IMG/VR virus record: IMGVR_UViG_3300046170_000379
Span: 1-35,958 of that record
Reading direction: 5' to 3' (one strand)
From: a virus
Length of the DNA stretch: 35,958 bases
Below the pieces are notes generated by a model, which saw only the letters and a program-made list of their open reading frames with translations, was not told where the DNA came from and did not search any database. Numbering within the stretch: position 1 is the first letter of the stretch; every line of letters starts with the position of its first letter. This document shows positions 4,851 through 17,423 of this stretch, piece after piece. The position numbers were made by a program, and so were the translations under genes.

Positions 4851-6119
4851 ATGATACATAGCATAATTAGCAAACTGATAAAGGATCTAACAAAGTCATT
4901 AAAGGATCTGGAAGACTTGAAACAAGAAGCTTCCAGCGCCGAAACCTCTGCCGAATATACGAGTGCCGAAACCTCTGCCGAATACACGAGCGCGGAGACT
5001 ACTAGTGCCGAATATACGAGCGCCGAAACCTCTGCCGAATACACCAGTGCAGAAACGAGTGCAGAATACACTAGCGCGGAGACTAGTGCTGAGACTAGCG
5101 GTCAGGTTTTCTGGCCTATGTTTAAGTATCTGTCTGGCGAGATCAAGGGTAACCTTACCAAGACACGGACTATGGCTATTGATAACAAAGGCGTGATTCA
5201 TTCATTGGGTTACAAGTCTGATATGCATATAGAAACATACACTTCTAATGATTCTATTAGCAGAAACGTCACGGGTCATAAGGGCTTTATAGGAAATGTG
5301 GAGTCTTCGAACGGTTTTACTTACTTCTTGCCAGCTTATTCAACATCTATAGGGCGTTTAAATAGGGATACAGGAGCTATAACACTCGAAAATAAATTCC
5401 AAAGTTGCCCACAGGTTAGATCTGGAGTAGAGGGTGCGAATGGTATCATTTATATGCCTTCTTATACTAAAACTCTAAAAATATACACTTTAGATACTAA
5501 AACTGGAGAAACTGGCTGCTTTACTCCTCCACAACCGGGGTTTTTCGGTCATGTATGGGGCGCAGCAGCAGATCCAGAGGGGAATGTTTATATGCCGCCA
5601 GCTTTAGGCAATAAGGTTCTCAAGATAGATAAAGATGGCAATAGCTCATTACTAAAGGGTAAACCTGTTACATCGGGGGTATCAGGGTTTAGTGTAAAGT
5701 ATGTTGGGGCAACATATGTAAAGAGTGTGAACAAAGTTTTCTGTCTCCCTAGAGTAGGCAAGAAGATTCTCATTATTGATTGTTCTGATGATAGCTACGA
5801 AGAGATTGATCTACCATCTGATTATCTAAAGGTGGCTAATAAAAACAAAAACTTTCATGGGTTCTTGGCTCCTGATGGTTGGCTTTACAGCGCATTCTGG
5901 GCTGACACAAAGTGTTTCCGTATTAATCCTCACACTAATGAGATTCAATGGAAAGATTATGAACATGAATTCAGTGATGGTTATTTGACAGCTAAAATGG
6001 GTTCTGGTATCATGAGTTTAGGAACTGGTTACTCCACCTGTGCATTGACAAAAGGGAATGACGTTTACCTTGGACTAGCAGGGACTTCTAGAGCTATCAA
6101 GCTTGAGTTTAAAAAATGA
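4851..6119 (+). CDS. Repeat-stalked beta-propeller protein
   Basis: 422 aa in three parts. Residues 1-27 are a charged helix with coiled-coil character. Residues 29-83 are 12 SAE units in SAET and SAEYT forms, a low-complexity stalk. The rest has about seven blade-like repeats of roughly 42 residues, each with a pattern such as GNVYMPP...NKVLKIDKDG, typical of NHL/SMP-30-like beta-propellers. The shape suggests a binding head on a flexible stalk, perhaps an adhesin or carbohydrate-binding protein, but it lies far from the structural genes and has its own promoter. No signal peptide is evident. Function is inferred from architecture only. Confidence 0.65.
   Translation: MIHSIISKLIKDLTKSLKDLEDLKQEASSAETSAEYTSAETSAEYTSAETTSAEYTSAETSAEYTSAETSAEYTSAETSAETSGQVFWPMFKYLSGEIKGNLTKTRTMAIDNKGVIHSLGYKSDMHIETYTSNDSISRNVTGHKGFIGNVESSNGFTYFLPAYSTSIGRLNRDTGAITLENKFQSCPQVRSGVEGANGIIYMPSYTKTLKIYTLDTKTGETGCFTPPQPGFFGHVWGAAADPEGNVYMPPALGNKVLKIDKDGNSSLLKGKPVTSGVSGFSVKYVGATYVKSVNKVFCLPRVGKKILIIDCSDDSYEEIDLPSDYLKVANKNKNFHGFLAPDGWLYSAFWADTKCFRINPHTNEIQWKDYEHEFSDGYLTAKMGSGIMSLGTGYSTCALTKGNDVYLGLAGTSRAIKLEFKK
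4935..5099 (+). repeat. In-frame tandem repeat encoding SAET/SAEYT units
   Basis: Degenerate 12- and 15-bp units alternate to give an approximate 27-bp period (9 residues, SAETSAEYT). Twelve SAE units are present, with one SAETT variant. Synonymous changes between units (GCC/GCG/GCA, GAA/GAG, ACG/ACC/ACT) show that the array is not freshly duplicated, although a few neighbouring units are nearly identical. Confidence 0.85.
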
Positions 6120-13752: not shown

Positions 13753-13845
13753 TTAGTTTCTTTTTCTAATTAGTAAAATTAACGATGCGATAACTGTGGC
13801 CCAAAATCCAAGCCCCAACGAGATAAGAGATTGAATCAGTTGCAT
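13753..13845 (-). CDS. Small membrane protein, 30 aa
   Basis: ATG at 13845 lies inside the end of the GP88-family gene (10-nt overlap). The peptide MQLIQSLISLGLGFWATVIA continues as a hydrophobic helix and ends LIRKRN, a good positive-inside membrane peptide. Its stop lies 2 nt before the next ATG. Confidence 0.5.
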   Translation of the reverse strand: MQLIQSLISLGLGFWATVIASLILLIRKRN

Positions 13846-14546
13846 TTTGGCTCAACAACAAAACCTGTTTCGTCTTTTTTAGCAAGACCTTTCTCAACCA
13901 ATCCGACAATCACACCCTTAGGATCTTTAAAGCGCAGATCATTTTCATCTCCATCTACAACGGGATAGCCTAGGTAAGTTTTAGGAAGTGAACCACGGAA
14001 GACGACGGCGACGTTGCCCCCTAACTCAAGGATTGTTTTCATTTTGTTATCACTAGTCTCCTCACTGCGAGAAAAGGTAAGATGGTAGTTGTCAGGCATT
14101 TTGCCATCAAGCCAAGCCCTCATTCTATAAAACCCTTTAGTGTAATCGTAGAAATTCACATTTGGGAATTCTTCAATCACATTTGTTTTACTACCCTTAC
14201 GGACATTCTCCCAAGGGATATCGCTTGTAAGATTAAGTCGGAAGCATGGAATCATTTGCTTTTTAGCTGCGCTAATGATCGCCTTGCCGATTTCAATTCT
14301 AAGGTCCGACATAAAACCGAAGTTATCCTTAAAGAATCTTTTAGTTTTATTTATTCTAGAGGTTTGCACGTTGCTCATGCAACCACGACCCGCAGTATCT
14401 AAACAAGCGGCACGACAACCTGCGCTTGCCCATTGGCAGACATTGAATCCTGATTTATTAGCGGGGGAAAGATGGAGACCGAAAGTGCGATATCCTAGAA
14501 CCTCTCCCTTGAGAGTTTTGGCATTGCCTTGATTAAGTAGTTTCAT
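13836..14546 (-). CDS. GP88-family phage protein
   Basis: 236 aa. The segment GLHLSPANKSGFNVCQWASA followed by GCRAACLDTAGRG matches the Cys-rich start of the GP88 family (named from a mycobacteriophage gene product), widespread in phages and without a proven function. The Cys cluster (three Cys within about 11 residues) may bind metal or an iron-sulfur centre. First gene of a long reverse operon running down to 12160; its promoter is at 14556-14583. Confidence 0.7.
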   Translation of the reverse strand: MKLLNQGNAKTLKGEVLGYRTFGLHLSPANKSGFNVCQWASAGCRAACLDTAGRGCMSNVQTSRINKTKRFFKDNFGFMSDLRIEIGKAIISAAKKQMIPCFRLNLTSDIPWENVRKGSKTNVIEEFPNVNFYDYTKGFYRMRAWLDGKMPDNYHLTFSRSEETSDNKMKTILELGGNVAVVFRGSLPKTYLGYPVVDGDENDLRFKDPKGVIVGLVEKGLAKKDETGFVVEPKCN

Positions 14547-15921: not shown

Positions 15922-15998
15922 GTAAGTCACTGATATTCAATGAGTTACGAGGCGGGGCCGGGGCGTGGCCCGTAACTCGCTGATACACAACGAGTTAC
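15922..15998. repeat. 77-bp double-palindrome element, copy 3
   Basis: Same layout. Outside the element CCTC and GAGG extend the outer pairing, and A and T runs follow on both sides (AAAAAAACCTC...GAGGGTTTT), so arms 1 and 4 can form a bidirectional terminator-like stem. It starts 7 nt past the stop of the 16006 gene. Confidence 0.85.
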
Positions 15999-16005
15999 GA
16001 GGGTT

Positions 16006-16265: not shown

Positions 16266-16293
16266 TACTTTTTTTAATTTATTTTTTTTAGCT

Positions 16294-16370
16294 GTAAGTT
16301 GCTACTAATCAACGAGTTACGGGCCGGGGCGGGGGCGTCGCCCGTAACTCCTTACTAATCAGTGAGTTAG
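16294..16370. repeat. 77-bp double-palindrome element, copy 4
   Basis: The inner arms GAGTTACGGGC and GCCCGTAACTC are a perfect 11-bp inverted repeat around the GC core. It is downstream of the tmRNA-like RNA and upstream of the 16230 promoter. The last base of the right arm differs (GAGTTAG). Confidence 0.85.
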
Positions 16371-16495
16371 AGCGTTTTATCCGTGTCAAGTAAAAAGTGG
16401 CATATTTCTGCGAGGGCTATGCCAGACCCACGACCCTTCCTTATTTAACGTCTTACGGATCGCTTAACCGTGTTTATACTCACTTGACGGATTGT
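16371..16495. other. Non-coding 3' flank of the tmRNA-like RNA
   Basis: No gene of credible length. On the reverse strand there is a TTGACA near 16383 without a suitable -10, and a short ACGG...CCGT hairpin near 16455-16471. An ATTTCTGCG motif recurs here. Confidence 0.4.
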
Positions 16496-16561
16496 TGGTG
16501 GATGGCGGGGGGATCGAACCCCCATCCGCGACTTGCGTCCCGTCGAAACCATTGGCCACCC
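16496..16561 (-). ncRNA. tmRNA-like RNA reduced to the tRNA-like domain
   Basis: Read on the reverse strand: acceptor GGGTGGC pairs with GCCATCC, including the G3-U70 pair that specifies alanine, with discriminator A and an encoded CCA end. Four bases after the acceptor comes GGTTTCGACGGG, the conserved D-loop signature of bacterial tmRNA. The T arm GGGGG-TTCGATC-CCCCC follows GCGGAT, as in tmRNA 3' ends. Where tmRNA has its mRNA-like domain and pseudoknots, this RNA has only GAC-GCAA-GTC, a GNRA-capped 3-bp hairpin. No normal D arm or anticodon arm can be drawn. It starts 7 nt after the stop of the 16569 gene, so it is probably cut from that transcript. Confidence 0.7.
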
Positions 16562-16568
16562 AAACTTT

Positions 16569-16793
16569 TTACTTGCCGTAGATCCAGCGAAGCTCATTGC
16601 TCCACTCCTTGACCATCTTAGCCTCATGCCCCTTTGGGTTCTTGCAAGCGGCGGGAAGCCACTTCCTGATCATGCGCTGGAGCTTCCGCATCCTAAGCCA
16701 TTCACCCAAGTGAATGCCAATGGCGAAAGGGTAAGTGAGAATGAGAAGGGCTTTGCCCTTAGTATCTTGATCTTTGAAGTTGTGTAGGTTCAT
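16569..16793 (-). CDS. Hypothetical basic protein, 74 aa, next to the tmRNA-like RNA
   Basis: A hydrophobic segment (about residues 14-28, ALLILTYPFAIGIHL) is followed by a strongly basic, Trp-rich half (RMRKLQRMIRKWLP...). It could associate with membrane or RNA. It is not recognisable as SmpB. It starts 4 nt after the stop of the 16798 gene, and its stop is 7 nt before the tmRNA-like RNA, so all three share a transcript. Confidence 0.6.
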   Translation of the reverse strand: MNLHNFKDQDTKGKALLILTYPFAIGIHLGEWLRMRKLQRMIRKWLPAACKNPKGHEAKMVKEWSNELRWIYGK

Positions 16794-17346: not shown

Positions 17347-17423
17347 GTAACTCGCTATCGCTCAGTGAGTTACGGGCCGGGGCGGGGGCTTCGCCCGTAA
17401 CTCGTTGATACTCAGTGAGTTAC
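17347..17423. repeat. 77-bp double-palindrome element, copy 5
   Basis: The best-formed copy. Left palindrome GTAACTCGCT/AGTGAGTTAC, right palindrome GTAACTCGTTGA/TCAGTGAGTTAC, and inner arms GAGTTACGGGC/GCCCGTAACTC perfect. Flanked by AAAGC and GCTTTTT, so the outer pairing extends beyond the element. Confidence 0.85.

Follow-up and report, generated by a model that had tools for sequence, protein, structure and literature searches.

The tRNA-like RNA at 16496-16561

The window, the whole 36-kb linear phage fragment analysed here (IMG/VR record IMGVR_UViG_3300046170_000379; 35,958 nucleotides), encodes on its minus strand a 66-nt RNA that is a transfer-messenger RNA (tmRNA) reduced to the tRNA-like domain (TLD) plus stem P2. 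The following parts were identified.

16496-16561, minus strand: the TLD-only tmRNA, 66 nt with its CCA, aligned to RF00023 positions 1-374 and with relatives in 61 further viral contigs
16555-16561, minus strand: 5' acceptor strand GGGTGGC, which holds G3 of the G3-U70 pair and forms 7/7 pairs with 16500-16506
16539-16550, minus strand: tmRNA signature GGTTTCGACGGG of the D-loop/P2 junction, identified by its sequence, of which TTCGAC belongs to the search pattern
16527-16542, minus strand: stem P2 with a GCAA tetraloop, CGGGAC-GCAA-GTCGCG, replacing the mRNA-like domain and paired across relatives though the search did not require it
16507-16523, minus strand: T arm GGGGG TTCGATC CCCCC, identified by its sequence, the RF00023 structure and a covarying T stem
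16496-16506, minus strand: 3' acceptor strand GCCATCC, discriminator A73 and encoded CCA, identified by sequence

Read from 16561 to 16496, the RNA is GGGTGGC-CAAT-GGTTTCGACGGGACGCAAGTCGCGGA-T-GGGGG-TTCGATC-CCCCC-GCCATCC-A-CCA. The acceptor strand GGGTGGC is followed by the four bases CAAT and then by GGTTTCGACGGG, and GCGGAT comes later, before the T arm. The acceptor GGGTGGC/GCCATCC is paired at all seven positions, and its third pair is G-U (G3·U70). Every TLD feature listed in the initial annotation, namely the 7-bp acceptor, G3-U70, A73, CCA, GGTTTCGACGGG, GCGGAT and the T arm, was found at this site.

The alignment of RF00023, the Rfam tmRNA model, to the RNA covers model positions 1-374, of which 312 are deleted (43.5 bits, E=4.9e-16). 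In this alignment the mRNA-like domain, with its resume codon, tag frame and pseudoknots, is missing and a 4-nt loop stands in its place, which agrees with the initial annotation. That annotation had also described a GAC-GCAA-GTC hairpin as the substitute for the lost parts; the hairpin is present, but it is no new element and corresponds to the retained P2 with a GNRA cap. P2 of the window forms 5/6 pairs, with one G-G mismatch at a pair that is G-U in many relatives.

The RNA does not qualify as a tRNA, having no anticodon arm and no RF00005 or ARAGORN match, nor does it belong to the permuted two-piece tmRNA families RF04321 and RF01849-51, in which the 3' half precedes the 5' half and a coding piece is present. 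Neither ARAGORN nor a gathering-level Rfam scan of the window picked it up. The search pattern gave 0 matches in 100 dinucleotide shuffles of the window (expectation 0.00). Its folding energy was unremarkable (z=-1.05) and was rejected as evidence; we regard the RNA as real because of its sequence signature and comparative covariation.

Conservation, distribution and known counterparts

Relatives were collected with a degenerate pattern in which TTCGAC, the T loop and ACCA were fixed, U70 was left free and P2 was not required. This pattern matched 60 viral contigs, about 55 of them real. With L063 from a longer-gap scan and L078, L079 and L082-L084 from a relaxed scan, TLD-only RNAs are present in 61 viral contigs and the window, and fall into 19 families at 80% identity. 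L009, L015, L024, L029, L042 and L085 were rejected as tRNAs or chance matches, and L080 and L081 were left undecided. When gaps of 36-66 nt were scanned, L063, at the lower edge, was the sole real case and the remainder were tRNAs or chance; the RNAs are therefore a size class of their own rather than part of a graded series of partial deletions. Two phage contigs carry two distinct TLD-only RNAs each (L092 and L093 in G036, L094 and L095 in G035; 3.5 kb and 8.5 kb apart). In L049, a 489-nt tmRNA called by ARAGORN at 636-1124, which joins the 3' half of the TLD to an upstream stretch, was judged false because it contains a 7/7 TLD; this call illustrates a possible source of mis-annotation of TLD-only RNAs.

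Pair counts were taken from the fixed-register alignment A2 (38 distinct rows), in which the TTC triplet was entered as a constant and hence provides no evidence. Model R1 was not used for these counts, since its automatic structure missed the acceptor owing to the variable linker. Standard pairs filled 98.0% of cells versus 70.5±1.3 in shuffles, and the covariation score was 0.698 versus 0.163±0.017 for shuffled alignments and did not rise above 0.178 when partners were slid. Acceptor and T-stem pairing had partly been used to accept candidates and P2 had not, so that, among these stems, P2 gives the cleanest test. It is paired in 94.7% of cells, with changes on both sides in 5/6 pairs and exchanges among G-C, A-U and U-A at the second pair, and the flanking GAC/GGA is found in nearly all relatives. 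The T stem covaries as well.

Pairs 1-3 of the acceptor are constant, whereas pairs 4-7 swap freely. G3-U70 is present in 38/38 distinct rows and in all 57 parsed copies of the first set, though the first scan had left U70 free. This strict conservation of the alanine identity indicates that charging is probably selected. The initial annotation had looked to relatives for G3-U70, TTCGAC and the short P2 hairpin, and many of them keep these features. Within the TLD family of the window, phages share 89-92% of the RNA sequence, with the similarity of both 150-base flanks at or close to that expected by chance.

None of 84,980 prokaryote genomes matched the strict pattern, and five CCA-less matches there (L073-L077) were dismissed as chance, with no properly placed acceptor strand before TTCGAC. 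These patterns are strict indeed: the first three cultured copies that were read (BRock, LuckySocke and Jojan60) all fail the first pattern. The counts of copies are therefore minimum values, and it is unproven that prokaryote genomes have none.

BLAST searches of cultured phages with the concatenated TLD set and then with single TLDs revealed TLD-only genes in eight Streptomyces phages (BRock, LuckySocke, GiJojo, Tomas, Naboo, Riptide, Alone3 and pSt2308) and in Stenotrophomonas virus Jojan60; those of Naboo and GiJojo are known only from full-length BLAST matches. Direct BLAST of the window locus itself against cultured phages gave no match. A tmRNA is annotated at the TLD-only gene in 0/9 cultured carriers, and in GiJojo and Jojan60 hypothetical proteins are annotated over or into the site. 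Full standard tmRNAs were found in PegLeg and Calle_1, and permuted ones in Rb1, QDWS359, QDWS595, PHB04, Tunturi_4, Marzo and DLP_6. The permuted two-piece genes of Rb1, QDWS359, Tunturi_4, PHB04, DLP_6 and QDWS595 (L117, L118, L119, L121, L123 and L089) do not carry a tmRNA annotation. In Tunturi_4 (L119, 118-465), a release-factor gene with an RF-1 domain lies directly upstream of the tmRNA gene, and the two possibly constitute a ribosome-rescue pair.

According to the initial annotation, no natural RNA of this description was known, which proved incorrect. PMC4131195 and PMC11915505, citing Mao et al. 2009, describe the ssrA gene of Mycobacterium phage DS6A as 'TLD only', and jakobid and other mitochondrial tmRNAs (Rfam RF02544, Jacob 2004) and two Mallomonadaceae plastid tmRNA genes of about 65 bp (PMC11915505) have also been described. 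The 2025 tmRNA database contains 9 'standard, no CDS' entries among 97,179 sequences (PMC11915505). By definition, the DS6A gene is little more than a TLD (PMC4131195), as is the window RNA, whose 66 nt match both ends of RF00023; DS6A is, however, a different phage, and the likeness concerns the described make-up of the gene. The plastid genes, which belong to the 'standard, no CDS' class, resemble the window RNA in their length and in having a TLD without a tag frame, but they are organellar and no decoy role was proposed for them. The mitochondrial tmRNAs have likewise lost the mRNA-like region and kept the G-U pair for AlaRS, whereas their genes are usually permuted, their SmpB partner is encoded in the nucleus and they are thought to help, not to block. 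Full phage tmRNAs (standard in PegLeg; permuted in Marzo, DLP_6, QDWS595 and PHB04; also Melnitz) are phage-encoded and bear the TLD signature, but unlike the window RNA they keep the mRNA-like domain. The ssrA attP site of Mycobacterium phage Nibb also places 3' TLD sequence in a phage; it comes without the 5' half and has an adjacent integrase.

Thus, the TLD-only kind is already known from DS6A, plastids and mitochondria, and what appears new is its breadth across phages and the strict alanine identity. In the open-licence literature, DS6A was the only phage RNA of this kind that we found named, and we found no description of the phage breadth, the cultured Streptomyces and Stenotrophomonas carriers, the two copies per contig or a comparative demonstration of the structure and of the alanine identity.

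A putative decoy against trans-translation

AlaRS reads G3·U70, EF-Tu binds the acceptor and T stem, and SmpB binds the elbow of the TLD. The window RNA retains the corresponding parts: G3-U70, A73 and CCA for AlaRS, the acceptor/T stack for EF-Tu, and the TTCGAC D-loop/T-loop elbow and P2 for SmpB. SmpB was found in 0/39 TLD-bearing records, many of which are fragments and several of which exceed 80 kb, and the same search was positive in 10/10 bacterial controls. Any SmpB partner must therefore be that of the host, and it is from known tmRNA biology, together with this negative result, that host SmpB is proposed as the partner.

We propose, with a probability of roughly 0.6, that the window RNA is a phage-encoded TLD-only tmRNA acting as a decoy against host trans-translation. 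The proposal draws on the DS6A-type precedent: according to PMC4131195 and PMC11915505, both citing Mao 2009, a TLD-only molecule was a strong inhibitor of tmRNA in E. coli. As these papers cite it, this work provides a direct experimental precedent for the idea of a decoy or of SmpB titration in the initial annotation. The transcript would be processed by host RNase P and charged with alanine, and host SmpB and EF-Tu would bind the RNA, which would then either titrate SmpB or enter stalled ribosomes. On the ribosome, the TLD could accept the nascent chain without offering a template or a stop codon, and tagging by tmRNA would be blocked. The gain for the phage is conjecture: incomplete phage proteins might be spared tag-directed degradation, or the resolution of stalled ribosomes might be altered.

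The invariant alanine identity suggests that charging matters in the phages, which would favour a dead-end ribosomal substrate over pure titration. A bolder version, which we offer only tentatively, is that widespread and independently maintained phage RNAs act as charged suicide substrates that shut down trans-translation, and that G3-U70 is under selection because they work by alanylation and ribosome entry rather than by mere titration of SmpB. Dozens of divergent, covarying phage copies, set against none in 84,980 cellular genomes under strict patterns, suggest that phages commonly target trans-translation, and the copies in several cultured phages make such targeting testable. The invariant G3-U70 also raises the question of why a decoy must be chargeable.

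Several points weigh against the decoy proposal. The window RNA scores 43.5 bits, under the RF00023 gathering score of 47 bits that was exceeded in 33/40 records of relatives, P2 of the window copy contains a mismatch, and another role of the TLD RNA in its charged state is possible. For example, a charged TLD with host SmpB might add one alanine and help to release or recycle stalled ribosomes untagged, as proposed for mitochondrial tmRNAs without a tag frame. The strict alanine identity, with charging probably under selection, would suit such a rescue, which nevertheless seems unlikely: with no resume or stop codon, termination by the known route is impossible, and the sole in vivo bacterial test of such an RNA cited in these papers gave tmRNA inhibition. 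It is more doubtful still that the RNA serves away from the ribosome, as a small alanine acceptor for another enzyme or as a load on AlaRS or EF-Tu. This would account for the conserved alanine identity and T arm, but TTCGAC, the GAC/GGA junction and P2 are conserved too, though AlaRS does not need them, and the conserved neighbours examined included no aminoacyl-transfer gene.

Two further explanations concern the origin and completeness of the gene. Several cultured phages have permuted two-piece tmRNAs, and the window RNA might be one piece of such a molecule with its mRNA-like piece encoded elsewhere in the phage. We consider this very improbable, as P2 already ends in a loop of its own, neither a permuted nor a standard tmRNA besides the TLD-only copies exceeded the cut-off in the 39 records, and none was found at gathering level in the window. 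Least credible is that the RNA is what remains of an ssrA attachment site or of a captured host tmRNA gene in decay, the former having been named in the initial annotation as an outcome that would undo its claim. Phages do integrate at ssrA, and Nibb has a 3' piece beside its integrase; however, an attachment-site remnant can for practical purposes be dismissed, because a tyrosine integrase was found in only 1/39 records (serine integrases were not searched), neither half of the TLD is missing and P2 shows covariation. Moreover, BRock has been described as virulent and without lysogeny genes (PMC7453282), and the size class is discrete, with one real case in the next gap range.

Genomic neighbourhood

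Two features adjoin the RNA.

16569-16793, minus strand: open reading frame (ORF) of 74 aa upstream of the RNA, ending 7 nt before it, from the ORF listing
16395-16492, minus strand: conserved module of about 95 nt, TCGTCAAGTGAGTAYAAACACGGTYAAGCGRTCCG...TCTGGCATAGCCCTCGCAGAAATATGCCAC, directly after the TLD

Homologues of the 74-aa ORF occur at 10 loci of the TLD family of the window, where most end 6-7 nt before the TLD, and the ORF and the RNA probably share a transcript. The ORF gave no PHROG or Pfam match. The 95-nt module was found in 25 viral contigs behind various genes; since 18 of these contigs are without a TLD, it was rejected as a tag-coding piece. In L102 (about 13796), the upstream gene end and the downstream module are as in the window and the TLD is missing, so that two sites which otherwise correspond differ in having or lacking the RNA.

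No helper gene shared by all TLD neighbourhoods was found. Genes of the GP88 family (PF17338) lie near the TLD in several TLD families (window 13836-14546, minus strand; L050 1620-2408; L026 9771-10421). Hairpins of the form GTAACTC...GAGTTAC recur in the window at 16291-16373, 15971-15999 and 17397-17423 and are probably terminators between small genes. In addition, the plus-strand ORF at 4851-6119 of the window contains an in-frame (ETSAEYTSA)n repeat close to its N terminus.
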